From the IMG/VR virus record IMGVR_UViG_3300030382_004480, positions 1-21,777 of that record: a DNA stretch of 21,777 bases; one strand, given 5' to 3'. This DNA comes from a virus. Below the pieces are notes generated by a model, which saw nothing but the letters and a program-made list of their open reading frames with translations, was not told the origin of the DNA and ran no database searches. Position numbers and translations under genes: made by a program. Positions 6,021 to 21,465 of the stretch are shown here, in pieces. How positions within the stretch are numbered: position 1 is the first letter of the stretch; each line of letters begins with the position of its first letter.

Positions 6021-6668
6021 GTGCCCTTCACTGTCCCCGGTCATCGGTTCCTGTTCGTCAACGTCCCCCAGACTTGTGGTGACTGGACACGGGCAGCCCT
6101 GGACCTGGTCAAGTGTCAGAGCGTCAACGGCCCCCCGGCTGAGGTTCCCTGGCTGGTGGCTGGCAATCAGGTGATCGCTCAGATCACGGATCCGTGGTCC
6201 TGGTATGCCAGGCTCCATGGCCACCTATGCCTCACAGGTCGGGACAGGGAGCTCAGGCAATGGGGCAACGGTGACAGCAGCTTTGCCGCTGTCCTCAAGG
6301 GCTGGACCCGGCCAGAGACCGTGGATGAGGTGCCCTCACCCCCCGGCGTGGTCTGGGCCCCTTATGGCCCAGGGCCCCACCCGCCCCTTGAGGGTGGCCT
6401 CTGGTCTTGGACCTATCGGGCCTTCCTCGGTGACCTGATCGCGATCCTGGTAGACCAGGCCCAGCTCATTGATGGGTGGTCATTCCTGCTGGCTCGTGAC
6501 CTGGAAGCGCCGCCACCTGAGCTGGACACAGCAGGCCCCCGGGCCCTCTATACCCGCCCCCTCAAGGACCGGGTCAGGGCTGCTGACCGGGAGCTCATCG
6601 AGCATTGTGGCTATCAATTCCTCAGGCCGTCTAAAGACGCATCCTTGCACGCTTGGCCCCCTCGGTAG
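6021..6668 (+). CDS. Sulfotransferase-like P-loop protein (degenerate)
   Basis: A 215-residue protein starting at GTG 6021. Three features resemble phage and bacterial sulfotransferase-family proteins. First, an N-terminal strand-loop FVNVPQTCGDWTR (residues 12-24) lies where the PAPS-binding loop F-[IV]-x-[IV]-PKTGGTS would be. Second, ITDPWSWYARL (55-65) resembles the R-x-P-x-x-W-Y segment that contacts the 3'-phosphate. Third, a C-terminal ALYTRPLKDRVRAADRELIEHCGYQF (175-200) resembles the usual closing helix. The loop Lys and first Gly of PKTGG are replaced (PQTCG), and the Arg of R-x-P is a Thr, so catalysis may be lost or altered. If active it would move sulfate from PAPS to a sugar or protein; if not, the fold may serve as a structural part. 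The stop codon lies inside motif copy 2. Confidence 0.5.
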   Translation: MPFTVPGHRFLFVNVPQTCGDWTRAALDLVKCQSVNGPPAEVPWLVAGNQVIAQITDPWSWYARLHGHLCLTGRDRELRQWGNGDSSFAAVLKGWTRPETVDEVPSPPGVVWAPYGPGPHPPLEGGLWSWTYRAFLGDLIAILVDQAQLIDGWSFLLARDLEAPPPELDTAGPRALYTRPLKDRVRAADRELIEHCGYQFLRPSKDASLHAWPPR

Positions 6669-6671
6669 AAC
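6660..6671 (+). promoter_or_regulatory. Repeated motif CCTCGGTAGAAC, copy 2
   Basis: Exact 12-mer spanning the stop codon of the sulfotransferase-like gene, followed by a C-rich tract containing CCCCACCCCC. The T of TAGAAC (6666) lies 36 bases before ATG 6702; a start 12 bases after that T would leave a 24-base leader with AGAGG as ribosome site. It would serve the long run of genes from 6702 through the tail module. Confidence 0.6.
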
Positions 6672-6921: not shown

Positions 6922-7665
6922 ATGGCTTCTGGCGCTGCTACCAGCACCCTGACCGCTCGGTTCCTGCTCCCTGACCTCATGGAGCGTGGCCGGGCCAATG
7001 TGCTCTCCTGCCCCCTCTGGCAGGATGGCGCCCTGGTGGCGCCGACTGAGGCCGGCAGCACGATCACGATCTGGGATGGGCCAGGCACTGAGCAGGTCTC
7101 AGCGGCAGCCATCACGGTCACTGGCTCAATTGCGACCTATAGCCACACCCCTGCAGCATCGGTGTCCTATGGCGAGGGCTGGCGGGTTGAGTGGTCACTC
7201 ATTGTGGCTGGCGTCACCCATGTAGTCCGCAATGATGGGGCCCTGGTTCGCAACGTGCTCTATCCGGGCGTGACTGACGCTGACCTCTTCAGACGCCACA
7301 GGGCTCTTGACCCTTCCAGCTCGAGCCCCTTGAGCTCGGTGACGAGCTACCAGGACTACCGGGATGAGGCCTGGGCCACCCTCATGGGGCGGCTCATTGC
7401 CAAGGGTGACCGGCCCAACCTGATCCTCAGCCCGTCAGCGCTCAGGGACGTTCACCTGGCGCTGACACTGGCCCTGATCTTTGCTGACTTTTCCACCAGT
7501 CTGAATGAGACCTATGGCGAGAAGGCTGCCGATTACCGGGAGCAATACCAGGATGCCTGGGCTGACTTGAACTTCATCTACGCTGCCAGTGATGAGGATG
7601 ACCAGGGCACCCCCGATACCCGCCGGGCTGCTGTGCCTTCCATCTGGCTATCTGGCCGGCACTGA
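6922..7665 (+). CDS. Head-tail connector (adaptor)-like protein
   Basis: A 247-residue protein starting ATG 6922, one base past the preceding stop. It looks two-domain. Residues about 1-110 are beta-rich (AGSTITIWDGPG, SYGEGWRVEWSLIV). Residues about 115-230 are helical (YQDYRDEAWATLMGRLIAKG, LRDVHLALTLALIFADFST, YREQYQDAWADLNFIYAAS) and resemble the helical bundle of head completion/adaptor proteins that stack under the portal. The first portion recalls a small beta domain found in some connector or tail proteins. An upstream in-frame start at 6883 exists but lies within the previous gene. Position between decoration and tail terminator genes agrees with the call; the exact ring it forms is unknown. 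Confidence 0.55.
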   Translation: MASGAATSTLTARFLLPDLMERGRANVLSCPLWQDGALVAPTEAGSTITIWDGPGTEQVSAAAITVTGSIATYSHTPAASVSYGEGWRVEWSLIVAGVTHVVRNDGALVRNVLYPGVTDADLFRRHRALDPSSSSPLSSVTSYQDYRDEAWATLMGRLIAKGDRPNLILSPSALRDVHLALTLALIFADFSTSLNETYGEKAADYREQYQDAWADLNFIYAASDEDDQGTPDTRRAAVPSIWLSGRH

Positions 7666-8105
7666 TGCTGTCTGTCCTCACTGTTTCTGAGGTCAGGGAT
7701 CGCATTGACACAGCCCTTGCCGATGCCGGCTATACCCGCTCGAGGTTTGTGCCTGACCTCTTTGGCCGGGACACTGACCACCTTGTGTCAGGCTCCTACA
7801 GCATCAGCACCCCGGCAACCACCCTCGATCAGTTCTCTGGCCGGGACCAGTTCACCGATGAGGGTGAGGCTGAGACAGTGGTTGAGATCAGGACAGCCTA
7901 CCGGATCCGCCCTGACTCCCAGAGCCTCGACTATGGCCAGGCGTTGGACCAGGAGCATCAAGTCCTGAGGGCTGCCCTGGACCTTGACACCACTTATCTA
8001 CAGGTCAGGATCAATGGGATACCGCGCCGGGCTGTGTCCTCAGCCGGTGACTGGCTGGTCTCCACGATCCGTCTCACCATATTCCATCGCTTCACGTTTG
8101 CCTGA
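7665..8105 (+). CDS. Tail terminator/completion-like protein
   Basis: A 146-residue protein overlapping the preceding stop by one base (TGATG), so probably coupled. An N-terminal helix (VSEVRDRIDTALADAG) is followed by beta strands with EGEAETVVEIRTAYRIRPD and ending STIRLTIFHRFTFA. That alpha-beta order, with a helix packing on a sheet and a central helix (YGQALDQEHQVLRAAL), matches the general layout of phage tail terminator proteins, which cap the tail tube and join it to the head. Length is in the usual range. It lies one gene before the gp10-like neck protein and two before the tape measure gene, which supports a neck or tail-end role. Confidence 0.5.
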   Translation: MLSVLTVSEVRDRIDTALADAGYTRSRFVPDLFGRDTDHLVSGSYSISTPATTLDQFSGRDQFTDEGEAETVVEIRTAYRIRPDSQSLDYGQALDQEHQVLRAALDLDTTYLQVRINGIPRRAVSSAGDWLVSTIRLTIFHRFTFA

Positions 8106-8113
8106 GGGGATCC

Positions 8114-8542
8114 ATGCCGGTCAAGGTTGGAAAGGGCAGATCAGAGGTCACCATCAGTGGCGCCCTGGGTGATGACCTCGAGGCTGAGATCCGCGCCATC
8201 CTGGGCCCGGTGGCTGATGCCATGCAAGCTGAGGCCGATGCCATCCTCAAGGAAGAGGTGGGAGAGAAGTGGCCGGTCAAGTCAGGCAAGAGCCGGGGGG
8301 CCTGGGTGACTACCTTGAGGGTCCAGCCTGACTCAATGCTTGTGGAGATCGTCCTGAGCAACCCGTTTGCCTATACTCGTTATATCCGGTCCACCAGGGT
8401 GGGCAGAAACAATGACGCCACCCGGCGCCGGTCACCCCTGGTGGTCCACGTCAGGAAGCCCTCCAGGGCTGCCGTCAAGAGCCTCAAGAAGTCATTGCCT
8501 GGCATCATTGCCCAGGCTCTTGAGGATGGGGTCCTGACCTGA
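8114..8542 (+). CDS. HK97 gp10-like neck/tail completion protein
   Basis: A 142-residue protein with AGGGG as ribosome site before ATG 8114. It has an amphipathic helix (AEIRAILGPVADAMQAEADAIL) followed by WPVKSGKSRGAWVTT and VEIVLSNPFAYTRYI. The pattern of a helix, then P-x-x-[TS]-G-x-x-x-x-[SA]-W, beta strands and a [NA]-x-x-x-Y-x-x-[YF]-[IV] turn is characteristic of the HK97 gp10/minor tail family found at the head-tail joint. The C terminus is basic and helical (RKPSRAAVKSLKKSLPGI). The TGA stop overlaps the ATG of the tape measure gene by one base. Confidence 0.62.
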   Translation: MPVKVGKGRSEVTISGALGDDLEAEIRAILGPVADAMQAEADAILKEEVGEKWPVKSGKSRGAWVTTLRVQPDSMLVEIVLSNPFAYTRYIRSTRVGRNNDATRRRSPLVVHVRKPSRAAVKSLKKSLPGIIAQALEDGVLT

Positions 8543-11043
8543 TGGCTGACACCACTGTTTCAATTGGCGCTGACCTATCTGAGCTCAGGCGCGAGCTGGG
8601 CAAGCTGCCCAACCTGAGCGCGGAGGCGGCACAGCAAACCCTCATCCAGGTTGAGAAGGCTGTCCAGAAGGCTGAGGAAGCGTCAAAGAAGTCAGCCAAA
8701 GCGATCAAAAAGGCCCAGAAGGCAGCCGCAAAGGAAAGCCGCAAAGCCATCGAGGCCTCAGCCAGGGCCAGTGAGAAGGCGCTCAAGGGCATTGGAGACA
8801 CAGCCGGGGACACTGACAGCAGCCTCAAGGCTGTGGCCGGCGCCATCGGTCTGATCAGCCCTGAGGCTGAGAAGGCACTAAGCTCAGCCGGTGACCTGGC
8901 GGGAGGCCTCGAGGGTGTCACCCGTGGCACGGGCATTCTCGGGGGCTCAATGGCAGCCCTGGGGGCCCTGGTGGCTGCCGCTGCTGTGGGCTTTGCCGCC
9001 CTGGCAACGGTCTATCTGGCAGTCAGAAACGCCAGCGAGCAAGCGGCAGAGGAGGGGGGCCGGCTGGCTGCCCGGGTGGAGGAAACCCGGGCCCGGTCAG
9101 AGGCAGCAGCCGCCAAGGTCAGGGAGCTCACAGCAGCGTGGCAGGCCTACAACGACGGGGCCCAGGCCTGGCGGGACAAGATCGACCTCATCAACGGGGC
9201 GATCACTGAGACGGAGCTGGCCACCCGCAACGCAACAAAGGCCCTGACTGACCAGGCCCGTGCCTCTCTGGTGGCCTCAGGCACCCTGGTAGCCAGCATT
9301 GAGGCACAGATTGAGGCCAATGAGGCGCTCATCAAGTCCGGCAAATTGTCTTTCAAGGAAGAGGTGGCGCTCACAAAGCAGCAGGACATGCTCAAGGTCA
9401 AGATCAAGGGCGCCACAGAGGCGCTCGATAAGAGGAAAAAGACCTTAGACGATGACATCAAGGCAGTCACTGACGCGATCCAGTACAACGAGGAATTAGG
9501 CAAGTCCAACAAGTTTGTAGCGGATCAGGAAAGGGCCCGGACAAAGGCAGCCGTGGACGGCGCCAAGCAACGGGCAGCAGCGCTGAAGCGGGAGCAGGAG
9601 GGGTGGGACAATTTCCTCAGTGAGCTGGACCAGATCATTGAGGCCCTGGCAGAGGTCAAGCGTGCCCGGCGTGGCCTCAGCGATGAGATCGAGGACAGCC
9701 CCCCGGATGTGGTCCCGCCACAATGGATCAAGGATCTCAGGAAGCTGCAAGAGACCACAGATCAGCTTGTGGGCGCCAATGTCCTGAGCGAGGTTGATCA
9801 GCTTGGCCAGCACCTTGCATCTCTTCAGGGTGCCTGGAAGGCCAGCGGCTTCAGCGATGAGATGATCGCGGATCAGATCAAGCGGGTTGAGGCCAGGATG
9901 GCTGAGCTGGCGTCAGAGGCTGCCGATGCCCTGACGGCTGTGGAGGGTGACCCCGATCCTGATGTCAGCTTCTTTGAGAAGATACAAGCGGCAGCCGGCA
10001 AGACGGTCAGCGCCATCTCAGGGATAGGCGGCGCCATCGGTGGCGCTGTGGGGATGTTTGACCGCTTCCTTCAGATGGCTGGCGGCTTCAGCCTGGCTGA
10101 CCTGGGAGCCATTGCCGCTGAGGGTGGTGACGTTTCCGGCGCCGTGGAAGAGATGATCCAGGGTGGGCGGGACACCATCAAGGTCTTTGTGGAGTCCTTG
10201 CCAGCCGTGATTGATGCTTTTGTGGCTGAGCTCCCTGGCCTCATGGAGGACTTCACAAAGGCAATTAGGCCGGTGGTTGCCTCGGTGGCTGACGCTGTCC
10301 CTGTTGTGATTGATCAGATCGTGGCAGCCCTGCCCGGCCTGGTGTCAACGGTTGCGGATCTCATCACTTCTGGGCTCTTTGATCAGATCATCTCAAAGCT
10401 CCCATCGGTGGTTTCGGCCATCCTCGATGAGCTGCCAACGGTCATCACGGCGCTGCTGGCTGCCGTGGGTGACGTGGTGGCGGCGTTCATCTCCCAAATT
10501 CCGGCCATAGTCCTCACGGTTATTGATGCCCTGCCCCTGGTCCTCAAGGCAGTCACTGACGCCCTGCCTGACCTGGCGGTCCAGATCGTCCAGGCCATCA
10601 TCTATGAGCTCATCCCCAGGCTCCCTGAGATCTCGATAGCGATGACAAAGGCCCTGCTGATGGACCTGCCTGAGGCCCTGGCTGAGTCTTTCACCGAGAG
10701 TGTGCAGAAATTCTTTGAAGACTTGATGGCTGAGCTGGGCCCAGGTGACCCCAAGACTGAGACATTTGGCGATACCCCCGGGCCCGTCAGGGCGCCCCTC
10801 AGTGGCCTCAGGGCCCGCTTTGCACCAGGGGACACAGTCATAGCCGCTCAAGACCCTCAAGAGCTCTTGAGGCAAGCCAGGCAGGCAGCCGGGGACACAG
10901 GCTCAGGGGCTCGTGCTGTGACTCTTGATCTCAGGGACGGGCATCTGGCCTTTGATCGTATGTTCCGCACCAACATCAGATCAGGCGGCAGCCTCTCCAC
11001 CCTCATCAATGCCCCTGTGGGGCGTGTCAAGGTCTACGGATAA
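8542..11043 (+). CDS. Tape measure protein
   Basis: An 833-residue protein with the composition of a tape measure: it fixes tail length and is ejected with the DNA. Residues about 20-85 are a Lys/Ala-rich coiled coil (QVEKAVQKAEEASKKSAKAI). Residues about 133-161 form a hydrophobic stretch (ALVAAAAVGFAALATVYLAV). A further long coiled-coil region covers about 165-350. The C-terminal part, about 550-720, is built of hydrophobic LP-x9-LP units (for example LPSVVSAILDELP and IPAIVLTVIDALP). At about 1.5 A per residue the tail would be near 120 nm, an estimate from the known length rule. No peptidase or lysozyme motif is seen. It overlaps both neighbours by one base (TGATG and TAATG). Unusually, tail tube and chaperone candidates do not precede it. 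Confidence 0.88.
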   Translation: MADTTVSIGADLSELRRELGKLPNLSAEAAQQTLIQVEKAVQKAEEASKKSAKAIKKAQKAAAKESRKAIEASARASEKALKGIGDTAGDTDSSLKAVAGAIGLISPEAEKALSSAGDLAGGLEGVTRGTGILGGSMAALGALVAAAAVGFAALATVYLAVRNASEQAAEEGGRLAARVEETRARSEAAAAKVRELTAAWQAYNDGAQAWRDKIDLINGAITETELATRNATKALTDQARASLVASGTLVASIEAQIEANEALIKSGKLSFKEEVALTKQQDMLKVKIKGATEALDKRKKTLDDDIKAVTDAIQYNEELGKSNKFVADQERARTKAAVDGAKQRAAALKREQEGWDNFLSELDQIIEALAEVKRARRGLSDEIEDSPPDVVPPQWIKDLRKLQETTDQLVGANVLSEVDQLGQHLASLQGAWKASGFSDEMIADQIKRVEARMAELASEAADALTAVEGDPDPDVSFFEKIQAAAGKTVSAISGIGGAIGGAVGMFDRFLQMAGGFSLADLGAIAAEGGDVSGAVEEMIQGGRDTIKVFVESLPAVIDAFVAELPGLMEDFTKAIRPVVASVADAVPVVIDQIVAALPGLVSTVADLITSGLFDQIISKLPSVVSAILDELPTVITALLAAVGDVVAAFISQIPAIVLTVIDALPLVLKAVTDALPDLAVQIVQAIIYELIPRLPEISIAMTKALLMDLPEALAESFTESVQKFFEDLMAELGPGDPKTETFGDTPGPVRAPLSGLRARFAPGDTVIAAQDPQELLRQARQAAGDTGSGARAVTLDLRDGHLAFDRMFRTNIRSGGSLSTLINAPVGRVKVYG
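10189..10710 (+). repeat. Degenerate 11-residue LP repeats in tape measure C-terminal half
   Basis: Pro is spaced 11 residues apart in five places, each in an LP, VP or IP pair: LPAVIDAFVAELP, VPVVIDQIVAALP, LPSVVSAILDELP, IPAIVLTVIDALP and LPLVLKAVTDALP. At DNA level the units are diverged, so these are protein-level repeats. Confidence 0.65.
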
Positions 11044-14000
11044 TGGGCACCCGATACGATGACGCCCCCTATATAGGGCTCCTGGTCTCAGATGACCGGA
11101 TCAAGACAGCCAACCTGAGGGCCAATGACGGCACCCTTGGCAATAGTAACTACACACAGGCAGGACCTCAGCCCGGGGTGCCTGAGTTTGACCAGGCTGA
11201 GGTTGCTGCTGTCAGCGCCACAGCCGGGGACTATGGGCCCAGTCTGAGCCTCGAGGCCCTGGGGGACCAGGACAGCGCCACCAGCTACCACGTCAAGACA
11301 CTCAAAGGTGGGATGCCCGGCTCTGATGCCACAGTGGTCCGGCGGGACGCCCTGACCGGCACTGTCTGGCGTGGCTGGAATACATACAACGTCTTGGGCC
11401 ATGTTGAGACCAGCAGCTTCATCACCCACGACCCCACAGATCACATTGACTTTGCAATGTGCACAACGGCTGACCACAAGGCGCTGATCGTCAGGTGGGA
11501 CGCTCTCAAGATCGTGACTCGCCTGTGGGATCCTGAGACCAGGACAGCATCAGCCAACGTGACAGCGGTTGATCTGGTGCTCCCGGTGACCCCTAACGAT
11601 GATGATGCAGCCTATAGCGTAGCCGTGGGCACCCCTCTTGATGTGCTGGTGCTCCCGTCAGGGCGTCTGGTGATTTACTTCCTGACCAAAGAGATCGACA
11701 GCACCACATCAGTACAATTGTGGGCCAGCTACAGTGACGATGACGGCGCCACCTGGCGGACAGCCCAGTATCTGGGGCTGGCTGATGCCCTGACGGTGGT
11801 GGCCGGCACTGTCCTCAAGATGAAGGCAGCCTACTCAGACGGGTCTGTGCTGCTGGTCATTGAGCGGCGATACGATATCAACGATTCTACATACACGGGC
11901 CTCAGCCAGTACGCCAGTGATGACACGGGTTTGAATTTCGAGCTCGTGCGGGATGATGAGGCTGAGGAGGTCACCACAGGGGTCACCCATCCTGACATCC
12001 TGGTCGACCCCACCAGCGGCGCTTTTGTCCTGCTGTATGAGGATGACGGCGGAAACAGGATCCGGGCCTCGAGGCTGAGCTCACCCTATCTGCCCTATGT
12101 GGAGGGGGACATCGTGACAGCCAGCTCAGGGGTGGTGGCCCCTGACCACCTGGCGGCATTCCAGTCACCACAGGGCGATCTGTATTGCACCTACACAACT
12201 CAGGGGATCGCTATGCTCTGGTCCCGTGACGGTGGCGCCACCTGGGCCACCATTGAGGGGCCCTTTGACTGGGATGACGTGGCAGGGAACACGGGCTGGC
12301 TGTGGGATGTGACGGTCGCCAAGGGCCGGGCAGTCTGGATGATTACCCAGACGGTGAGCTCAGGGGCGCTGCCCCTTGATGATGACTTCCTGATCTGTGA
12401 GACAGGTGGATGGAATACGCTCTGTCAGTCCAGGGTGCTTGGCACAGACCCTACCCTCAATCGTGGATTCGGGGACACCACCATAGATGCTCATACATGG
12501 CTGCCCTTCACAGCCCCGGAGCTCGATCATGGCTGGACCAGAACCGGCGCCGGGGGTGCCGTCACCCCCAGTGGGGTGAGCCCTGGCCTGAATGTGACGG
12601 TTGAGACCCAATACAGCAAGTCACCCACGGGGGCAGACACTGATGGGATGGTGGTCTACTGGTCTCTTGAGGTGGACTCAAGCCCCAGCATCAGCGCTCT
12701 TGAGGTGGGGCTGCTCATCAAGCTCAAGACCTATGACATCAGTGTCAATTTTAGCGGCACCCAGGTCAGACTGTATGACCGCCACGCTGCTGCCGTCATC
12801 GGGACAGCCAGCCCCTCAGGTGGCATGGGCACAGAACACGTCTTCAAGCTGGCGATCTGCCACAATGCCGGCGCCAATGCCAGCGTCACCCTGTATCGCC
12901 GGGCACCCGGGTCTGACGTATGGGCCACGCTGATCAGCGGGACCACCACCACAGCCGGCGCCAGCGCCGTCAACCTGATCAAGTGGGGCAATTTCGTTGC
13001 GGCTGAAGATTCCACCTGGCGTTTTGTGGCCTATGTGATGGATAGCGGATCGGGGGTGGTGAATAACTACACAGACGATCTATCCTTTGACCTGCTGGCC
13101 CTGGATCCCTATGTGCTTTACGGGGCGCCGCTTCCTGTTCCACCCCACCGGCTCTACCTGGACAAGGGCCTCAGCATCAGGGGCACGTCAGGCCCGGCCA
13201 CCCGTGGGGACACCTGGAAGATTGAGCCCCGGTTTGACCACCCCATCACAGCCCTGGACCCTGTCAATTCCGCCAGTCCTGCCAGGCGCTGGCGTAGCAC
13301 AGACACCACCCTCCACTTGCTGGCCTGGGACATGACCCTGGCCACCACCCTGGGCAACAGCTCAATTGGGCTATTCCTCGGGGGTATCAATTTCCCCACG
13401 GCGCTCTTCCTCGGATGGGACGGGGCAGCCTGGGTGACGCTGGCCACCCTCAAGGCTGACCAGGGCCTCAGCGCCGTGGCCTGTGTAGTGACTGGGGACA
13501 CCATCACGGTCAATACGGCAGGCACTGTGGATGCCAGATACATCCAATATGGTGAATTCGTGGGCGGTTATGCCAAGTTCAATGGTGGTGACGTTCGCCG
13601 GATCGTCTGGAACAGTGAAGGCAGCTATACCGATGACACCACCAAAAGGCCTGAGTTTAGATTTGAGGGCACTGCCCCCGGTGGCGCCACGGCAACTGTG
13701 GAGCTGTGGCACCCCACAGCCCTGGTGCTGCTCCATGAGAACGCCACCCTATACTCACGCTATGGGCTGCAGATCCCAGCCTCCACCACGGCTGAGGGCT
13801 ACTTTGAGATCGGGGTAGTCCTCATGGGCGGCGTGGCTCTCTTTGGCCGCAAGTATTCCCGTGGTCGGGTGATTGAGACGGCGCCGAACTACAGCATGAG
13901 ACAGGACCAGGCCGGAGCTCGAGCCGTCACAAAGCAAGGGGACGCCCGGCGGGCTGTGTCCTTTGGGTGGTCAGAGGTGGACCTTACAGCCATCTCAGGC

Positions 14001-14306
14001 GCCACCCCTGACCCTGACTTCATCTCACCCCGGTCCCTGGCCACCACCCCCACGGCTGACCGCCACGGGGCGCCGCTGCTGGTTGAGGGCCTGGTCAGGG
14101 ATCTGGGTGGTGCCACCCGCCCTGTGGTCTATGTGCCCAACATCCCCAACACTACAGGCGGGAATAAGCAGACCCGCTTGAGCAGCCGTGAGGGCTATGT
14201 CTATGGGCGGGTCACCAGCTCAGTCAGCCGTCAGGCCCGGCTGGGCACTGAGAACCAGGACGAGGTAGTCACCCTCACAGGTGTCAGGATTGAGGAAGAG
14301 GTCTAA
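11043..14306 (+). CDS. Large tail protein with Asp-box (BNR/sialidase-type) repeats
   Basis: A 1087-residue protein directly after the tape measure gene (TAATG overlap), where the distal tail or tip proteins are normally encoded. Three Asp-box motifs S-x-D-x-G-x-x-[WF] are visible: SDDDGATW (231-238), SDDTGLNF (292-299) and SRDGGATW (394-401). They lie within a beta-rich region of about residues 100-460, consistent with a BNR-type beta-propeller. Residues about 500-700 look like a second beta sandwich (LEVGLLIKLKTYDISVNF, VTLYRRAPGSDVWATL), possibly lectin-like. The C terminus returns to tail-protein-like sequence. The propeller may bind or cleave surface glycans; Asp boxes are structural and do not prove enzyme activity, and I cannot place an Arg triad. 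It likely forms part of the tail tip and contributes to adsorption. Confidence 0.65.
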   Translation: MGTRYDDAPYIGLLVSDDRIKTANLRANDGTLGNSNYTQAGPQPGVPEFDQAEVAAVSATAGDYGPSLSLEALGDQDSATSYHVKTLKGGMPGSDATVVRRDALTGTVWRGWNTYNVLGHVETSSFITHDPTDHIDFAMCTTADHKALIVRWDALKIVTRLWDPETRTASANVTAVDLVLPVTPNDDDAAYSVAVGTPLDVLVLPSGRLVIYFLTKEIDSTTSVQLWASYSDDDGATWRTAQYLGLADALTVVAGTVLKMKAAYSDGSVLLVIERRYDINDSTYTGLSQYASDDTGLNFELVRDDEAEEVTTGVTHPDILVDPTSGAFVLLYEDDGGNRIRASRLSSPYLPYVEGDIVTASSGVVAPDHLAAFQSPQGDLYCTYTTQGIAMLWSRDGGATWATIEGPFDWDDVAGNTGWLWDVTVAKGRAVWMITQTVSSGALPLDDDFLICETGGWNTLCQSRVLGTDPTLNRGFGDTTIDAHTWLPFTAPELDHGWTRTGAGGAVTPSGVSPGLNVTVETQYSKSPTGADTDGMVVYWSLEVDSSPSISALEVGLLIKLKTYDISVNFSGTQVRLYDRHAAAVIGTASPSGGMGTEHVFKLAICHNAGANASVTLYRRAPGSDVWATLISGTTTTAGASAVNLIKWGNFVAAEDSTWRFVAYVMDSGSGVVNNYTDDLSFDLLALDPYVLYGAPLPVPPHRLYLDKGLSIRGTSGPATRGDTWKIEPRFDHPITALDPVNSASPARRWRSTDTTLHLLAWDMTLATTLGNSSIGLFLGGINFPTALFLGWDGAAWVTLATLKADQGLSAVACVVTGDTITVNTAGTVDARYIQYGEFVGGYAKFNGGDVRRIVWNSEGSYTDDTTKRPEFRFEGTAPGGATATVELWHPTALVLLHENATLYSRYGLQIPASTTAEGYFEIGVVLMGGVALFGRKYSRGRVIETAPNYSMRQDQAGARAVTKQGDARRAVSFGWSEVDLTAISGATPDPDFISPRSLATTPTADRHGAPLLVEGLVRDLGGATRPVVYVPNIPNTTGGNKQTRLSSREGYVYGRVTSSVSRQARLGTENQDEVVTLTGVRIEEEV

Positions 14307-15959
14307 ATGGCTGAGCTCAGACCAGCCCTGGCGACCCTGACCGCCCCCTATCGGTGGCTGGTTTCGCTCACCATTGCTGGCCGGGTGGTCAGGGTCAGCA
14401 CGGGTGGCCCTGTCACCATCACCGGCAACGATGGAGAGGTCTACACCTTCACCGGGGGGCTCGGTGACGTTGGCTTTGAGCGAGCCCTGGATCTCTGGGT
14501 GGCGAACCCGTCACCCCGATCCCTGTCTCTTGAGATGCTGCTGGGCTTTGACCTTGCCCAGATGGTGGCCAGGGGTGCCGCTATCTTTGCCGCTCGAGGT
14601 GAGCTGGCCCAGTGGTATGAGGGCCAGCCCTGGGAGAGCCGGCGGGTGGTGCTCAGGGGCCTGGTCCAGGAGCCAGCCTTCGGAGCTCTTGGTGAAGTCT
14701 TTGCCTTTGCCCTGGTGGAGGACCCTGGCGATGACCTGGCGCTCGTGCCCCGGTCCTCCTGGGTGGTTGAGACCGGCGCCACCTGGGAAGAGACAGGCAC
14801 CCTGGGCCCTGACCCGGGCATTGTGGGATCGTTCTACCCCCTGATCATCGGCGCCCCTGGTCAGGCTGTTGGGGTGGGGACCACGTCCACATCACTGAGC
14901 GATGAGATACCGGCCACCCCTGCCTTGCTGGTCAGGCGTGATGCCTCAGGCGGGACAGCCGTGGCTAACCACTGGATCCTGATCTGTGGCGGCACATCCA
15001 AGGCCACCAGCGTCAAGGTCTACAACGCCACAAACGACTCAAAGACATTCACACAGACAGCCTTTGTCAATGTCAATGACGCCCTGGGCCAGCCCGTCAC
15101 CTATGTCCAGCCCGACTCCACCAGCAACAGCCCTGTTGAGGGTGACCAGCTCTTTGCCATCTGGGATCCTGCCACAGGTGGAGGGCTGCAGAACCCCTAC
15201 GGCACTGGCACCCTCAGGGGCGCTGGTGATGTCATCAGGTGGGCCCTGGACAAGAGCTCTCTGAGGGTGGACAACAGCCGGCTCAGCGAGCTCAAGATCC
15301 TCAACTCCTATCACATAGACACCTACATCAATGGACCGGTGAGCCCCTGGTCCTGGTTGCTGGCTGAGGTGCTGCCCCTGCTCCCGGTCACTGTGGGCAC
15401 GGGGCCTGACGGACTCTTTGTGGTGCCCTGGCTGGCTCGAGCGCTGAGCGTGTCCCAGTCAATGGAAGACCTGGAAGAGGGCAGGAATTGCACCCGTCAG
15501 GGTGCTGTGGTCTACACGTCAACGTCAGAGGTTTACAACGACCTCACGATCCGCTTTGCGCCCAACATCGACAGCGGCAGCTTTGCCCTGCACCAGACCC
15601 TCAACGGGGAGACCTGGACCAGCACAGACCCCAATACAAGCCCCGGCTTGTGGTGCCGGCGCTCTGCCTCAATCTTTGGGAAGCGCTCCATGAGCCTTGA
15701 GGCCTCTGTCATCTATGACCCGGCCACAGCCGGCGCCGTGCTGACTGACATGGCCAGGCGCCACAGCCACCCACGGCGGGAGATTATCTACAGGCTGCCC
15801 AGGACACTGGACTGGCTCAGACCTGGCGACGTTATCACCCTCACCGATGCTGACCTCCACCTGTCCAGCGTGGTGGGTCTGGTTGGCTCAATCGCCTATG
15901 CTGAGGACGATCTCACAGCTCAGATCGTCCTGTTTGAGCCCCTTGTCTTTGCCGCTTAG
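14307..15959 (+). CDS. Tail hub/baseplate-like protein
   Basis: A 550-residue protein whose ATG directly follows the preceding stop (TAAATG), with GAGG as ribosome site. The N terminus (YRWLVSLTIAGRVVRVST, then VYTFTGGLGDVGFERALDLW) resembles the opening domain of central tail hub proteins. The segment from about residue 310 (IRWALDKSSLRVDNSRLSEL, then SWLLAEVLPLLPVTVGTGPDG and LEEGRNCTRQGAVVYTSTSEVYND) resembles the conserved hub core, and REIIYRLPRTLDWLRPGDVITLTD (about 490-515) is the typical strand-turn-strand with a Leu-x-Pro-Gly-Asp turn. Location after the tape measure and the large tail protein fits. No peptidoglycan-cleaving domain is visible. It is the last gene before the second cluster that begins with motif copy 3. 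Confidence 0.6.
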   Translation: MAELRPALATLTAPYRWLVSLTIAGRVVRVSTGGPVTITGNDGEVYTFTGGLGDVGFERALDLWVANPSPRSLSLEMLLGFDLAQMVARGAAIFAARGELAQWYEGQPWESRRVVLRGLVQEPAFGALGEVFAFALVEDPGDDLALVPRSSWVVETGATWEETGTLGPDPGIVGSFYPLIIGAPGQAVGVGTTSTSLSDEIPATPALLVRRDASGGTAVANHWILICGGTSKATSVKVYNATNDSKTFTQTAFVNVNDALGQPVTYVQPDSTSNSPVEGDQLFAIWDPATGGGLQNPYGTGTLRGAGDVIRWALDKSSLRVDNSRLSELKILNSYHIDTYINGPVSPWSWLLAEVLPLLPVTVGTGPDGLFVVPWLARALSVSQSMEDLEEGRNCTRQGAVVYTSTSEVYNDLTIRFAPNIDSGSFALHQTLNGETWTSTDPNTSPGLWCRRSASIFGKRSMSLEASVIYDPATAGAVLTDMARRHSHPRREIIYRLPRTLDWLRPGDVITLTDADLHLSSVVGLVGSIAYAEDDLTAQIVLFEPLVFAA

Positions 15960-15963
15960 TTAG

Positions 15964-15975
15964 CCTCGGTAGAAC
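15964..15975 (+). promoter_or_regulatory. Repeated motif CCTCGGTAGAAC, copy 3
   Basis: Exact 12-mer lying in the short gap after the hub gene stop, so it is truly intergenic and not explained by coding constraint. It is followed by CCCCCCACAGCCCCC. The T of TAGAAC (15970) is 31 bases before ATG 16001, leaving a predicted leader of about 19 bases. Confidence 0.65.
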
Positions 15976-16000
15976 CCCCCCACAGCCCCCGGATTGACTC

Positions 16001-16504
16001 ATGGCCAGCACCGTCAAAACAGACTTCACGCTCACCCTCAAGGCCAAGGAAGAGGAAAGCAACGACCTGGGCACCAGCCGGATGACTCACAATCTGGCCG
16101 TGTCCTCATTCTTTGCGGCTGGTTCTACCGCTTCTAAGTTCGACCGGGTGTATTCTGACAGCGGATCGGCAGCAGGCTCAGCCGTGGCCATTGATGTCCT
16201 CGGGGGTCTGAGCTCGGTATTGACCGGGGACGCTGGCAGCTTTGTCACCCTCAACGGCATCCTCATCAGGAACAAGAGCACCACCAGCACTGAGATCCTC
16301 AGCATCGGTGGAGGCTCAAACCCCATTGTGGGATGCTGGGGCGCCACTGGCGACCTCATCAAGCTGGGCCCTGGTGGGACCTTTGTTTGGCTTGACCCCG
16401 TTGACGGCGTCACCCCTGTGGCAGGGACAGGTGATATCCTCACCCTTGACCCCGGCTCAGATACAATTTCCTATGATGTGGTCCTCCTGGGCCGCTCAGC
16501 TTAG
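16001..16504 (+). CDS. Beta-rich virion-like protein
   Basis: A 167-residue protein preceded by an exact copy of the late motif. It is beta-rich and Gly/Ser/Thr-rich, with FDRVYSDSGSAAGSAVAIDVLGG, NKSTTSTEILSIGGGSNPIV, LIKLGPGGTFVWLDPVDG and a closing SDTISYDVVLLGRSA. The order (strand; LxGxL; then LGPGGxFxW; then GDILxL; then YDVVLLG) resembles a recurrent family of small jelly-roll-like phage structural proteins, for which I know no confirmed function. The promoter-like element and abundance-type composition suggest a major virion component, perhaps a tail tube or decoration protein. Its neighbour at 16533 is the better tail tube candidate. Both start with a promoter-like element about 31 bases upstream. 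Confidence 0.6.
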   Translation: MASTVKTDFTLTLKAKEEESNDLGTSRMTHNLAVSSFFAAGSTASKFDRVYSDSGSAAGSAVAIDVLGGLSSVLTGDAGSFVTLNGILIRNKSTTSTEILSIGGGSNPIVGCWGATGDLIKLGPGGTFVWLDPVDGVTPVAGTGDILTLDPGSDTISYDVVLLGRSA

Positions 16505-16507
16505 AAC
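16498..16507 (+). promoter_or_regulatory. Late-motif variant before tail tube gene
   Basis: AGCTTAGAAC followed by CTCCCCACCCCCC keeps TAGAAC and the C-rich tail of the repeated motif but not CCTCGG. The T of TAGAAC (16502) is 31 bases before ATG 16533, identical to copy 3. It overlaps the stop of the preceding gene. Confidence 0.5.
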
Positions 16508-16532
16508 CTCCCCACCCCCCAGGATCTGATCC

Positions 16533-17039
16533 ATGGCTTATTCCTCAGTTGTAAAGACCAAGCGTGACGGGGTCATCAGCATCTGTGATGCTGCTGGCTT
16601 TGGCGGCGCCAACACCATCGACATCAGCGCAGAGCCTGGTGACTTCAGCATGACAGCCGCTCAGGAGTCCCGTCTGGACTTCCTTGACCGTGGCCGGCTG
16701 GTGACCTCTGCCCGCTATGGGGATGACGCCGGGCTCACCGGGTCCTTCTCATCCTACTGGCGTGACGCCACTGACGCGGCTGTGGCTACCCTGTTCGACA
16801 TCCTCAACCAGTCCGGGTATGTCTCAACGGCCCCCTGGGTGTCCACCATCGGCGCCAGCGCTGAAGTCTTTGCGGTTGATTTGAGGCTCGTAATTGAGGG
16901 CAGCGATCACGGTGACGGTGGGGACCATTCCATCACCATCGAGGACTGCTCATTGGACTACGGCTTTGCTGAAGGGGATCCGGACGTGACCACAGTGAAC
17001 TGGCGTTCTCACTCCGATATTCGCCCAACCCTGGCGTAG
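16533..17039 (+). CDS. Putative major tail (tube) protein
   Basis: A 168-residue protein with a layout like small tail tube subunits: an N-terminal strand with KTKRDGVISICDAAG, then ISAEPGDFSMTAAQESRLDFLDRG, a mixed middle (YWRDATDAAVATLFDILNQSG), and strongly beta C-terminal strands (FAVDLRLVIEGSDHGDGGDHSITIEDCSLDYGFAEGD). Size (about 18 kDa) and the promoter-like element 31 bases upstream suit an abundant protein. It lies two genes before the tail assembly chaperone with its frameshift site, the arrangement expected for the tube gene in siphophages. The ribosome site is AGGAT, about 11 bases upstream. What is unusual is that the tape measure lies upstream of it, not downstream. A role as another structural protein remains possible. 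Confidence 0.58.
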   Translation: MAYSSVVKTKRDGVISICDAAGFGGANTIDISAEPGDFSMTAAQESRLDFLDRGRLVTSARYGDDAGLTGSFSSYWRDATDAAVATLFDILNQSGYVSTAPWVSTIGASAEVFAVDLRLVIEGSDHGDGGDHSITIEDCSLDYGFAEGDPDVTTVNWRSHSDIRPTLA

Positions 17040-17048
17040 CCCTGAGCC

Positions 17049-17636
17049 GTGGCCCTGGTCTTTCCATCAGCACACCTGAGGGCAGCGATGCCCCCTGAGG
17101 AATTCGCTGACCTGATCCTCGAGTATGAGGCTGAGTTGGATGAGCTCCACCCACCCTGGCGCCAGCCAGCACGGTCAAGGATGGGGCCCGGCATCATGGG
17201 CAGCCGTGGGGTGGAGGACCTAGAGGTCAAGGCCCGGGTCAAGTGGCTCCTACAGCGGCGAAAGCACCTATACGATGGGAAGAATTGGGACGTGGTGGTG
17301 AGGACTGCCATCGGGCCTGGTGGCCGTGCCCGGATGGTGGCAATGCCGATCATCCCCAGGGCTACCCATACCCCTGAGACGCTCGACGCGATCAGCCGGA
17401 TCAGGATGGCAGGCAAAGAAGCCCAGGCAAGTCTACCCCAGATCGCTGCACGGCTCGGGGTGCCGCTCAAGCGGGTTGAGACCCTGGTGATTGACTGCCC
17501 TGAGGGTGGAAACCTGTTCCACCACGCCAGGCGCAAGCTGGCAGCAGCTCCACAGCCGGCGCCGATCAAGATCAAGAGCAAGGCCAAGGCTAAGCCCAAG
17601 AGCAAGGCCAAGGCTAAGGCAAAGAAAACAAGCTAA
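17049..17636 (+). CDS. Unknown protein with HTH-like segment and Lys/Ala tail
   Basis: A 195-residue protein if read from GTG 17049; an in-frame ATG at 17088 has a better ribosome site (GAGGG about 6 bases upstream) and would remove 13 residues. I do not recognise a family. Residues about 57-75 are a basic helix (EDLEVKARVKWLLQRRKHLY). Residues about 128-147 (SLPQIAARLGVPLKRVETLV) resemble a helix-turn-helix with the LGV turn. Residues 171-195 are a histone-H1-like Lys/Ala tract made of two copies of an 8-residue unit. It sits between tail tube and chaperone genes, where a tail role would be expected, but the charged tail and HTH-like segment would also suit DNA or RNA binding. Function remains open. 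Confidence 0.7.
   Translation: MALVFPSAHLRAAMPPEEFADLILEYEAELDELHPPWRQPARSRMGPGIMGSRGVEDLEVKARVKWLLQRRKHLYDGKNWDVVVRTAIGPGGRARMVAMPIIPRATHTPETLDAISRIRMAGKEAQASLPQIAARLGVPLKRVETLVIDCPEGGNLFHHARRKLAAAPQPAPIKIKSKAKAKPKSKAKAKAKKTS
17574..17618 (+). repeat. Perfect 21-base tandem repeat coding the Lys/Ala tail
   Basis: Positions 17574-17594 and 17598-17618 are identical over 21 bases with a period of 24, coding KSKAKAK-P-KSKAKAK. It is a protein low-complexity repeat that may change copy number by slippage. Confidence 0.8.
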
Positions 17637-17642
17637 ACACCC

Positions 17643-17656
17643 GGTCAGGAGGACAC
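17643..17656 (+). promoter_or_regulatory. Strong ribosome binding site of tail chaperone gene
   Basis: GGTCAGGAGGACAC, identical over 14 bases to the site at 5153-5166. AGGAGG (17647-17652) sits 6 bases before ATG 17659, which selects this start over an in-frame upstream start at 17491 that lies inside the preceding gene. Confidence 0.8.
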
Positions 17657-17658
17657 CC

Positions 17659-18084
17659 ATGACCCCACGCTCAACCATCCGAGATATCCCCCAGTCTGAT
17701 CGCTATTTCAGCGTTGACCTGGGGGCTGATCTCGGGGACTTTGAATTCCGCTTCCCGTCCTATGGCAAGGCTGCCAGGATGGTGGGGCTGCTCCAGGGCC
17801 TACAGGAGGGTGACGGGCTTGACCGGCTGGTGGGTGTCCTCGACGTGGCCGGCTACGCAATCGGGGCTTGCTGGTTCAACCGTGGCTTTGACCTGGCGGC
17901 TGGGGATGCCCCCATCGCCATCAATGGCAACGGGTGGCGTGAGTACGGTGACGCTGTGATCGATGAGCTGCAGGAACACGGGGTCAAGCTGCCCGGGGTG
18001 ATGCTGCTGGTCAATACGCTGATCAATGAGCTGGGCTCGAGAATGTCAGAGAGCGCGGAGGCTGAGGAACAGGCGGGAAACTGA
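17659..18084 (+). CDS. Tail assembly chaperone, short form (G-like)
   Basis: A 141-residue protein starting MTPRSTIRDIPQSDRYFSVD. It is acidic and mixed alpha-beta, with AARMVGLLQGLQEGDGLDRL and an acidic end SRMSESAEAEEQAGN. Its last two sense codons, GGA-AAC, form with the preceding G the heptamer G-GGA-AAC (18075-18081) directly before the TGA stop. In siphophages such as lambda, the chaperone pair G and GT is produced by a -1 slip at such a site; the proteins coat the tape measure during tail building and are not in the final tail. Length, acidic C terminus, slippery site and overlapping -1 frame all agree. The ribosome site is very strong, as expected for an abundant chaperone. The gene lies about 6.6 kb downstream of the tape measure gene, instead of directly upstream. 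Confidence 0.75.
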   Translation: MTPRSTIRDIPQSDRYFSVDLGADLGDFEFRFPSYGKAARMVGLLQGLQEGDGLDRLVGVLDVAGYAIGACWFNRGFDLAAGDAPIAINGNGWREYGDAVIDELQEHGVKLPGVMLLVNTLINELGSRMSESAEAEEQAGN

Positions 18085-18098
18085 CCACCCCTGAGGGT
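18075..18098 (+). promoter_or_regulatory. Programmed -1 frameshift signal
   Basis: GGGAAAC (18075-18081) in zero-frame phase G-GGA-AAC fits the X-XXY-YYZ rule exactly, and the next codon is the TGA stop. Five bases later ACCC-CTGA-GGGT (18087-18098) can form a small hairpin. The lambda G/GT site is GGGAAAG, one base different. After the slip, reading continues at CTG 18081 in the -1 frame. Confidence 0.75.
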
Positions 18099-18368
18099 CG
18101 GCTCGACTTCATCACGATTGAGGCCGGGCTGCTCTTTGGGGGTGGTAACCCTGACTGGTTGCTTGACCTCCCACGGGAGCAACGGGTCAGGGTGATGGCG
18201 TATGTCCTTGCCCGGAAGGACAAAGAGCTGGCCTTCTGGTCATCCTCAGGGGTTCAAGCTGGTGACCTCGTCCACCTGCTGAGCGCTGTGGCCACAGGCA
18301 AGCGTCAGGGGCCCAGGGGTGACATGATGGACGGGCTACTGGGCCAGCTCGAGGATGAGGCCGAATAG
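18081..18368 (+). CDS. Tail assembly chaperone, -1 frame extension (T-like domain)
   Basis: The -1 frame is open from 18066 to the TAG at 18366-18368 and reads LTTPEGRLDFITIEAGLLFG, then GGNPDWLLDLPREQRVRVMAYVLARKDKEL and AFWSSSGVQAGDLVHLLSAV. Fusing it to the 141-residue short form gives a 236-residue long form. The extension is helical and charged and looks like genuine coding sequence; LPREQRVRVMAYVLARKDKE has the look of small tail chaperone extensions (L-x-x-[EQ]-x-R-x-x-x-x-A). There is no ATG or GTG start with a ribosome site; the only independent start would be TTG at 18159, which would lose the first 26 residues. Expression by frameshifting is therefore the better explanation. Confidence 0.7.
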   Translation: MTTPEGRLDFITIEAGLLFGGGNPDWLLDLPREQRVRVMAYVLARKDKELAFWSSSGVQAGDLVHLLSAVATGKRQGPRGDMMDGLLGQLEDEAE

Positions 18369-18383
18369 GCTACACTGTGGCCG

Positions 18384-18869
18384 ATGAGGACAGGCTCAAA
18401 GCCCTGCAGATCGTGGCGTCAATTGGCGCTACCCTTTGGGGCGCCGGGCCCCGTCTCCCGGCCCAGGGGCCCCGGCATTGACCTGGCTGACCCCCACCAG
18501 CGTGGCATCATCAATCGGCAGTTCTGGGGCTCGTTTGCTCAGCGGCTCAGGGCTCGAGGCCTTGACCCTGAGGACTGCCTGCAGGAAGTCTATAGGGGTG
18601 TCTTGACCCGCAACCGTGGCGCCAGGCCCTATGACCCCCGGGCCTCGAGCCTGAGCACCTACTCATACATTGTGATCCGATCCGTTTTCCTCAACTACCT
18701 GGACCACAACAGGAGGGCAGATCGCCGGCTCGGGGTGGTGGGGATAGAGGGGGATGCGGCAATGGTGGCCCATGTCCCGCTATGGGGTAATCCCCGGCCA
18801 CCTGAGCTGGAAGATATGACCCTCGGTAGAACACCCCCACCCTTGATGGAGCTCCCCCAATGGCTGTAG
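18384..18869 (+). CDS. Sigma-factor-like protein (region 2 only), candidate late regulator
   Basis: A 161-residue protein. Residues about 45-115 resemble sigma-70 region 2: FWGSFAQRLRARGLDPEDCLQEVYRGVL matches the core-binding helix with its D-x-x-Q-[ED]-[VT] signature (DCLQEVY), and YDPRASSLSTYSYIVIRSVFLNYLDHNRR matches region 2.3-2.4 (FDP-x-x-G-S-F-x-x-[WY]-...-N-x-x-x-D-x-x-R-x-x-R), which melts and reads the -10 box. The rest (about 116-161) shows no region 4 helix-turn-helix. Near the N terminus is QLALPF (13-18), like sliding-clamp-binding motifs QL[SD]LF and QLSLPL. T4 gp55, also a small sigma without usable region 4, drives late genes with the clamp. I infer a role reading the repeated TAGAAC motif. 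No clear ribosome site precedes ATG 18384. Motif copy 4 lies within its 3' end, and it overlaps the next gene by 10 bases. Confidence 0.6.
   Translation: MRTGSKPCRSWRQLALPFGAPGPVSRPRGPGIDLADPHQRGIINRQFWGSFAQRLRARGLDPEDCLQEVYRGVLTRNRGARPYDPRASSLSTYSYIVIRSVFLNYLDHNRRADRRLGVVGIEGDAAMVAHVPLWGNPRPPELEDMTLGRTPPPLMELPQWL
18821..18832 (+). promoter_or_regulatory. Repeated motif CCTCGGTAGAAC, copy 4
   Basis: Exact 12-mer in the 3' end of the sigma-like gene, read there in a different codon phase from copies 1 and 2, so protein coding does not explain it. It is followed by ACCCCCACCC. The T of TAGAAC (18827) is 33 bases before ATG 18860, predicting a 21-base leader. Confidence 0.65.
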
Positions 18870-19189
18870 ACCTCTCAGCACAAGCACCCCCCCGGCAATG
18901 CATGAGGGTGGCCCTTGACGGCACAGCAGACAACCTGACAAAGGTGACCCTGCCTGAGTGGGCCACGGCTGTGACCGTGACGTTCAAGCAGAACAATGAC
19001 AGCACCGATGACAGCGGCTTCATCACCTTTGCTGGCACTGACGGCGCCACCAAGGGTAACAACTGGTTTCCTATTGCTTCCGGCGGCGCCTACACCTACG
19101 CCATCAACGCCCCTGATGACAACTCAGTCATCTACCTGGCAGCAGCCACGAACACGGCATTTGCTCACCTGATGTTTGAGCGCTCCTGA
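18860..19189 (+). CDS. Small beta-rich virion-like protein
   Basis: A 109-residue protein directly behind motif copy 4, overlapping the sigma-like gene by 10 bases. It is beta-rich and ends without a membrane segment: RVALDGTADNLTKVTLPEWA, TAVTVTFKQNNDSTDDSGFI, GTDGATKGNNWFPIASGGAY, and a closing NSVIYLAAATNTAFAHLMFE. The pattern resembles small single-domain jelly-roll or decoration-type proteins. I do not recognise a specific family. It is probably a virion protein because it has its own late-type element and is coupled (TGATG) with the fibre-like gene behind it. Possible roles are decoration protein or tail fibre partner. Confidence 0.6.
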   Translation: MAVDLSAQAPPRQCMRVALDGTADNLTKVTLPEWATAVTVTFKQNNDSTDDSGFITFAGTDGATKGNNWFPIASGGAYTYAINAPDDNSVIYLAAATNTAFAHLMFERS

Positions 19190-20211
19190 TGGGATTCTAT
19201 AGATTCACCACTGGTGGCGGTGACGGATCTGACCTGGCGCTTGCTGACGGGCTGACCACCCAGCAGGACACCCTGGCCCAGGTCACCAGCACGGCTGAGA
19301 ACGGGGCAGGGACTTTCACCTGGACGTTAACGGACCCCTCAGGCGCCAGCGCCACAGCACGGCTCTCTGCCACAGATACGGCATCAGTGAATTGGACGCC
19401 CCACAACGGGCTCGATGATGACAAGTGGCTTGCCGGAAACTGGGTTGCTGCCTGTACTGATGGCACCGTCACGGTCAAGCACGTCATCCAGATCGGAACC
19501 GACAGCGGACACATACTCCACGACTGGACTACGAGGACCTATGCCACCACAACTGTTGGCTCTGTAGACGCCCGGGACGAACCCAACGAGGACTTCTCTA
19601 CCCCCACGAACCCTACGTTGGCGATTGATGGCGCTCAGAAGTGCAATATGTACCAAGCGGGAACGGACGGGTTCTGCATGGGATTCACCAGCCCCATCTG
19701 CTCGGCAGCTTCATTTGATGACATGATGTTCTCTGCCTACTCCATCATCCTTGTCACCGACGCTGATGAGATTGCCGCTGCGGATTCCAGCCAGAACGGG
19801 GTCTACGCGGGCCTGACTGAAAACGATACCTTCGGGTCTAACGAGGGGATCGCATGTGGGGTGGACCGGACAAGCACCGGGGTCATTAAAGCGGTCTCCT
19901 GTAAGGCAGGCTCGTCAAGGAATGTCAGCGGCAACGTCGCTTCAGACGATCCGCAACGATTCGAGGGCGTCGTGCTGCGATGGGAGCCTGAAGGGTCATC
20001 GGTCTGGGCGATCCAGATCGTCAATGCACAATCGGCTGCCGGGGTCACCACGGACAGTGCCGTGCAGACTTCCATGAATGAGGACTTCGGGACCTCACCC
20101 CAGATCTTTTGTGGCATTGGTTCCGTTGCTGGGGGTATGGCTTCCGGGTGGACCCAGGCGCTGAAAGTCTATTATAAATTCTTTCCTCAATATGACGGGC
20201 CCTCTGTCTGA
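19189..20211 (+). CDS. Tail fibre/receptor-binding-like protein
   Basis: A 340-residue beta-rich protein, coupled to the preceding gene by TGATG. Residues about 30-110 look like an immunoglobulin-like or bacterial-Ig-type domain (GAGTFTWTLTDPSGASATARLSATDTASVNW, then WVAACTDGTVTVKHVIQIG). Residues about 120-340 form a second domain with many Asn, Ser, Thr and four or five Cys (KCNMYQ, GFCMGFTSPIC, IACGVD, VSCKAG), and strands such as RFEGVVLRWEPEGSSVWAIQIV, which suggest a carbohydrate-binding lectin-like domain. Base use changes here: the pentamer CTGAG, very common elsewhere, is absent from about 19,300 to 20,205, suggesting the receptor-binding part was exchanged by recombination. Function is inferred. 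Confidence 0.55.
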   Translation: MGFYRFTTGGGDGSDLALADGLTTQQDTLAQVTSTAENGAGTFTWTLTDPSGASATARLSATDTASVNWTPHNGLDDDKWLAGNWVAACTDGTVTVKHVIQIGTDSGHILHDWTTRTYATTTVGSVDARDEPNEDFSTPTNPTLAIDGAQKCNMYQAGTDGFCMGFTSPICSAASFDDMMFSAYSIILVTDADEIAAADSSQNGVYAGLTENDTFGSNEGIACGVDRTSTGVIKAVSCKAGSSRNVSGNVASDDPQRFEGVVLRWEPEGSSVWAIQIVNAQSAAGVTTDSAVQTSMNEDFGTSPQIFCGIGSVAGGMASGWTQALKVYYKFFPQYDGPSV

Positions 20212-20588: not shown

Positions 20589-20858
20589 ATGATCTCAGCC
20601 CTGGCCCTTGTCCTCAATGCTGCTGCTGGTGAGCCCCCTGAGCCGGCCACCCAGGCTGAGACCTGCCACGCTGAGATGGTGCAAACCCTCCGGGCCATCT
20701 CTGATGACCTGGCGGCGGTTGACCTCGAGGCCCTGGCTGAGCTGGCTGCCCAGCAACCTGACCCGGCGCCGGCTGTGGCTGAGCCTGTGGTTGAGCCACC
20801 TGCCCCGGCTGACTCCGATGCCGGACTCTCACCCCTTCTGATCAAGGTCAGTGACTGA
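20589..20858 (+). CDS. Small exported protein with Pro/Ala-rich tail
   Basis: An 89-residue protein starting MISALALVLNAAAGEPPEPA, which looks like a short signal peptide with an A-x-A-type cleavage region around residues 11-14. The mature part is acidic: a helix (AEMVQTLRAISDDLAAVDLEALAEL) and a Pro/Ala/Val-rich stretch (DPAPAVAEPVVEPPAPADSD) ending in LLIKVSD. It has one Cys (near residue 26) not in a clear lipobox position, so I do not call it a lipoprotein. Its place between a membrane-anchored protein and a cell-wall enzyme-like protein suggests the host cell envelope as location; spanin-like function is possible but unproven. It ends in a GTGACTGACATG overlap with the next gene. Confidence 0.55.
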   Translation: MISALALVLNAAAGEPPEPATQAETCHAEMVQTLRAISDDLAAVDLEALAELAAQQPDPAPAVAEPVVEPPAPADSDAGLSPLLIKVSD

Positions 20859-20859
20859 C

Positions 20860-21465
20860 ATGCCGGCGCCGGCCTATCCATTGCCGCTGGTGCTCCAGCG
20901 CATCAAGGCAATTGGGGGTGAGGTCTTCACCAAAGGCGCGTACAACTTGAACCTGTTTGGCATCAGGTCACCCAGCCGGGACGCTGGTGCCTTCGATGAC
21001 CTCATGGGCTGTGCCTATCGGCCCACCGATGGTGGCCCCTGGCGGGTGGCGTATTGGCCGGCGACCACTGACCCTGGCATCTACTGGCTCCAGCACCCCA
21101 TGAGGGTGGAGGGCTGTGCCGCCCTGGTTGCTGATCGGCAGTATCCGGGGCTGTGGAAGGTGGGCCAGCACCGTGGGCAATATCGGGCCCTGGTCCAGGT
21201 CGGCACCTGTGCTGTCTATCGGGATGATGACCGGGATCGGGTGCTGGATTATGACCCCGTCACCATCACTGAGGGGGTCTTTGGCATCAATGCCCACAAG
21301 GCTGGCCAGGCCTCCACAGTGGTGGGCAAGTGGTCAGCCGGATGTCAGGTGCTGGCCCAGTCCGGCCCGGCTGGCTTTGGTGACCTGATGTTCCTGGTCG
21401 ACCTGCAGCTCACCCACCACCCGACCTGGGACCGCTTCACCTATACGCTCTTGAACCAGTGGTAA
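20860..21465 (+). CDS. YkuD-like H...SxGC protein, candidate endolysin
   Basis: A protein of about 201 residues (204 if read from GTG 20851). FGINAHKAG (H146) followed by KWSAGCQVL (S159, C162) resembles the H...S-x-G-C signature of the L,D-transpeptidase/YkuD catalytic core, in which Cys attacks the peptide and His activates it. The segments YNLNLFGIRSPS, PATTDPGIYWLQHPM, LWKVGQHRGQYRALVQVG and AVYRDDDRDRVLDYD form a conserved-looking pattern also seen in phage proteins with this core. It may cut or remodel peptidoglycan for lysis; a muramidase or amidase motif is absent. The start is uncertain: AAGG (20844-20847) is 3 bases before the GTG and 12 before ATG 20860. It lies at the end of a putative lysis group. 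Confidence 0.6.
   Translation: MPAPAYPLPLVLQRIKAIGGEVFTKGAYNLNLFGIRSPSRDAGAFDDLMGCAYRPTDGGPWRVAYWPATTDPGIYWLQHPMRVEGCAALVADRQYPGLWKVGQHRGQYRALVQVGTCAVYRDDDRDRVLDYDPVTITEGVFGINAHKAGQASTVVGKWSAGCQVLAQSGPAGFGDLMFLVDLQLTHHPTWDRFTYTLLNQW

Follow-up and report, generated by a model that had tools for sequence, protein, structure and literature searches.

The order tail tube, G/GT chaperone, tape measure ranks with the best-conserved traits of long-tailed phages, and genes are routinely annotated by it. The usual arrangement of the tail genes has been stated for Arthrobacter phages (PMC5513430), and the chaperone precedes the tape measure in further descriptions (PMC3556154, PMC2147016, PMC12859696). 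We analysed an entire IMG/VR virus record of 21,777 bases (hereafter, the window), in which densely packed late genes occupy a single strand. The original prediction for positions 8542-18368 placed the tape measure, a large tail protein and the hub first, with the tube and the chaperone behind them, and the gene coordinates agree with this order. In its parts the tail cassette of the window is that of an ordinary siphophage; what is unusual is the order of the genes, which has become fixed in a single clade.

All genes and sites described here between 7665 and 19189 lie on the + strand. On the neck side of the tail genes is a presumed tail terminator (7665..8105), whose homologues adjoin the adaptor in genomes where a separate tube exists. 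It is adjacent to a tail completion or neck1-like protein (8114..8542; weak phrog_5 match, E = 0.022), which overlaps the start of the 833-aa tape measure protein (8542..11043; phrog_58, E = 1e-14, plus other tape-measure families). A 1087-aa tail protein (11043..14306), located directly 3′ of the tape measure throughout the family, separates the latter from the hub or tail tip protein (14307..15959; Pfam PF13550 Phage-tail_3, E = 3.4e-5, exceeding the gathering score). Between the hub and gene 18860 (18860..19189) lie exactly a small protein (16001..16504; phrog_22694 of unknown function, E = 3.3e-18), the tail tube protein (16533..17039), a 195-aa protein (17049..17636), the chaperone (17659..18084) and a sigma-like gene (18384..18869). 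Since neither PHROGs nor Pfam nor NCBIfam offered a name for 16533, 17049 or 17659, these assignments needed other evidence. Further downstream, a 340-aa protein (19189-20211) is 90% identical to its L002 counterpart (10687-11706), the neighbouring proteins being 96-100% identical; no homologue was found elsewhere in the phage family, and it may be a receptor-binding or fibre protein that evolves rapidly. A likely endolysin is encoded at 20851-21465 (phrog_33083, E = 4e-15; phrog_3000, E = 1e-30).

The proposal that 17659 is a frameshifted chaperone was borne out. The short form (G) ends at 18084 and contains an in-frame slippery heptamer, G GGA AAC, at 18075..18081; a slip of one base backwards opens a frame extending to 18368 (18081..18368), which would yield the long form (G-T). 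Two bases past the heptamer begins a stem-loop (18084..18146) with a predicted stability of -41.2 kcal/mol (z = -5.1), equalled by no shuffled sequence. The same heptamer, GGGAAAC, which is also found in Caulobacter phage Colossus (PMC3556154), sits at the equivalent place in L002, G002/L003, L004 and L015, and a stem-loop is likewise predicted in the diverged relatives L003 (z = -3.2), L004 (z = -2.4) and L015 (z = -2.7). The standard heptamer is absent from many canonical chaperone homologues. Family-wide, nearly every complete homologue is prolonged in the -1 frame by a sequence of the form GDPxWFxxL...LA. Judged by these sequence features, 17659 with its extension is the predicted G/GT tail assembly chaperone. 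The 195-aa protein travels with it: homologues of 17049 are found just 5′ of the chaperone in L027, L028, L031, L037 and G007. In the window the chaperone lies 6.6 kb beyond the end of the tape measure, so a definition by position before the tape measure fails here; that location is a family habit, not a function.

Synteny was compared by establishing the order of 15 marker genes, from iterated profiles, over 69 contigs of an uncultured phage family. All contigs are metagenomic, and no isolated phage of the family was found. A tblastn search of 50,697 phage records returned no match for the tube, 16001 or the hub, and the tube was not found in the bacterial genome contigs scanned. In the 55 contigs having both genes, the tube is upstream of the tape measure in 49, some of them near-identical and hence not to be counted as 49 independent cases, and downstream in six. 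The corresponding figures for the chaperone are 50 and six. The six contigs with the derived order are the window, L002 (97% identical to it in DNA sequence), G002 (= L003), L004, L015 (= L008/L030) and L033. They fall on one side of a branch in the trees of the tube (SH-aLRT 95), the hub (99), the 1087-aa protein (100), the major capsid protein (MCP; 100, three of the six being present) and a concatenation of four tail proteins (100). The adaptor tree places L033 away from the other three derived members, without support. The six exceptions are one clade, and the block was probably relocated once. As this clade is nested within genomes of canonical order, the usual order is ancestral; L033 is the deepest-branching member with the moved order. 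The agreement of five other contigs with the window, together with the usual order in 49 relatives, indicates that the arrangement reflects neither chance nor an assembly error.

Both breakpoints could be located, adding strong support to the module rearrangement that had been proposed. In the close canonical relatives whose orthologues are unambiguous (L074, L075, L079-L081), the genes run terminator, tube, chaperone, completion, tape measure, the orthologue of 8114 being immediately 5′ of the tape measure in each. In the window, terminator and completion genes are neighbours. At the other end, orthologues of 18860 lie directly 3′ of the hub in canonical relatives, no more than about 50 nt from its end or overlapping it in L058, L060, L068, L071, L072 and L074. 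The block left the junction between terminator and completion genes and entered that between hub and 18860. Equivalently, the segment from completion gene to hub can be described as having moved ahead of the block. Genes scoring as completion-like are found before the tube in some contigs (L020, L054) and between chaperone and tape measure in others (L036, L058); two distinct families may have been captured by the completion profile.

Rather than moving within a genome, a second tube-chaperone cassette might have been gained after the hub, with the original copy lost later. Phage tails often exchange modules, and a simple move leaves unexplained why the homologue of 16001 is 3′ of the tube in G007 and L027 and 5′ of it in the window. 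16001, which was not detected at that position in L004 or L033, is an optional component of the block and is itself mobile. The tube and hub trees, however, both hold the derived clade together, and no genome with two copies was detected with a clean profile built from 54 tubes; beyond the clade, branches are too poorly supported for donors to be compared. We regard gain followed by loss as a real but less favoured possibility, and a single move of the block as the better account.

The moved segment had also been credited with its own control. A motif profile built without the window identified CCTCGGTAGAAC four times in it, at 2008, 6660, 15964 and 18821, each copy scoring 20.3 bits; the next-best site on either strand reached 8.7 bits. 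As anticipated, the third copy (15964..15975) coincides with the split, lying at the 5′ boundary of the relocated block, and its position is kept in G002, L015 and L004. The motif is present at this edge, exact or with one to two changes, in all four independent genomes having the sigma-like gene, and G002 and L015 contain an additional copy just 5′ of the tube (at 16513 and 13508, respectively). A variant thought to lie at 16502 was rejected: in the 60 nt that precede the tube in the window, the highest-scoring site reaches -5.1 bits, which does not rise above background. Elsewhere, the motif precedes the portal gene, 6702 and 18860, and in relatives also the MCP gene and g5172 (G002, 4143 and 5220 in reverse-complement coordinates; L015, 606 and 1723). 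Among tail genes it is found before 16001 or the tube and not directly before the tape measure, the 1087-aa protein, the hub or the chaperone. Its placement may point to genes whose products are required in large numbers. The copy at 18821 lies inside the 3′-terminal part of the sigma-like gene, a position that it keeps in L003.

The sigma-like gene, located right after the moved block, encodes a protein matching sigma-70 region 2 (PF04542, E = 4.5e-7, above gathering; TIGR02937, E = 3e-7), with no match to region 4 found. The five contigs encoding an 18384-like protein contain 17 occurrences of CTCGGTAGNAC, against two in the 64 contigs (882 kb) without one. These patterns make it possible that 18384 is a phage late sigma and CTCGGTAGNAC its promoter; we infer both the motif's promoter activity and its recognition by the 18384 protein. 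With the motif at the block's edge in four independent genomes, own transcriptional control of the block is plausible, the support being positional. The predicted promoters would plausibly be a way of keeping tube dosage high. A further idea, that extra promoters could make the move workable, stays conjectural: L033 combines the moved order and a 40-base gap between hub and tube with neither motif nor sigma-like gene detectable, and the motif also precedes other genes. The putative promoters may therefore not have been needed for the move. The simplest history puts the move before the acquisition of the sigma/motif pair, or has L033 losing that pair. We consider only tentatively that a region-2-only sigma and its promoter would give the block an independent late transcript, freeing the tail gene order and separating tube dosage from that of the tape measure and hub.

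The motif, with core TCGGTAGNAC, could alternatively, instead of a promoter, be an RNA-level element that sits at gene ends, serves in processing or translation and has no connection with the move. The copies at 2008-2019 and 6660-6671 contain the stop codon (CGG TAG) of TerL and of 6021, respectively, the former starting just 18 nt before the start codon of the portal gene, and L033 has the moved order without the motif. On the other hand, the motif recurs only in genomes encoding the sigma-region-2 protein, where every copy has the orientation of the genes and most lie 29-45 nt 5′ of a start codon, a spacing that fits a -10-like element followed by a short leader. An RNA element seems less likely to us, and we retain the promoter as the preferred, if conditional, interpretation.

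The presumed identity of 16533 as the tail tube was upheld by structure and by position. Homologues were identified at 67 viral loci. Three sequences alone gave a poor model (pLDDT 39); an alignment of 54 homologues gave a good AlphaFold2 model (mean pLDDT 87.8, pTM 0.80). Its top match in the PDB was the tail tube of siphophage vB_DshS-R4C (8gtb; Foldseek E = 5.3e-5; Z 10.9, rmsd 2.5 over 122 residues), closely followed by lambda gpV, monocin MttP and SPP1, and when the tube profile was searched against PDB sequences, no relative emerged. Terminators and tip proteins, which share the tube fold, also match the model, so that the fold alone is insufficient to assign the role. In principle, 16533 might be one of these other proteins, a terminator or distal tail protein, with the true tube located 5′ of the tape measure, 7665 being a candidate that an iterated tube profile indeed connects to tubes. 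That profile had drifted into terminators, for which reason the claim of one tube per genome rests on the clean profile: the latter matched a single ORF in each genome and, in the window, 16533 and not 7665, ruling out a second tube there. In canonical genomes, moreover, the 16533 orthologue is 5′ of the chaperone, mostly directly, and a separate 7665 homologue lies beside the neck genes, an arrangement that argues for the tube role. With tail tubes as the best matches of the model, this position and the single copy, identification of 16533 as the tail tube is supported, and the alternative appears very improbable. That the gene order stems from a chimeric contig has a negligible chance and was rejected, for even though every contig is metagenomic and isolates are lacking, six diverged contigs from separate assemblies, with tube identity down to about 62%, agree and form one clade.

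The explanation that best covers these results, to which we assign a probability of roughly 0.85, combines one block move in the clade ancestor with ordinary jobs for the proteins and, probably, a transcript start of the tube's own. The usual late order in this siphovirus-like family is neck, tube, G/GT chaperone, tape measure, large tail protein, hub and tip genes. As to the recombination route, we infer that a contiguous segment comprising the tube, a 17049-like gene and the G/GT chaperone was relocated once, between the hub and 18860, together with 16001 in most members of the clade. For assembly, G and the frameshifted G-T product would act in loading the tape measure and in delivering tube subunits, and these would polymerise on the hub/tape-measure complex. 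Such a process would require the presence of these proteins in the same cell and not one particular gene order. The majority of clade members have a copy of the late-promoter-like motif at the start of the block and the sigma-region-2 gene immediately after it; because the motif opens the block and the sigma-like gene follows, the abundant tube probably has its own transcription start. Read-through from the tail genes that occupy about 7.4 kb upstream could also supply tube transcript, presumably not as the sole source.

The clade keeps all parts of the cassette, with the first half placed behind the second, which indicates that the canonical order is not required for assembly. Comparison of L025, L074 and L079-L081 with the derived clade offers a clean view of the state before and after the move, and with it an approach to why the order is so conserved. 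The nearby sigma-like gene and motif make an explanation based on transcription dosage testable. In practical terms, annotation of genes by position fails in this clade. The open-access papers searched yielded no account of a siphophage whose tube and chaperone follow the hub, which is weak evidence of novelty because most subscription journals lie outside that search.

Late sigma factors of the T4 gp55 type are small phage proteins with similarity to sigma region 2 only, associated with short repeated sites before late genes. By its region 2 match and the repeated sites before late genes, 18384 may be comparable to them; the putative motif described here is GC-richer. The R4C tail tube has the same fold as 16533, with 20% identity over the aligned residues. 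G/GT chaperones likewise comprise a short form and a -1 frameshifted long form produced at a slippery heptamer, whereas here the gene is downstream of the tape measure and a strong stem-loop follows the heptamer directly. Finally, the canonical siphophage module, as in lambda (V-G/GT-H), SPP1 and the actinophages, consists of the same tube, frameshifted chaperone, tape measure, tail protein and hub, but in this clade the tube and the chaperone come after the hub, about 7.5 kb downstream of the tape-measure start.
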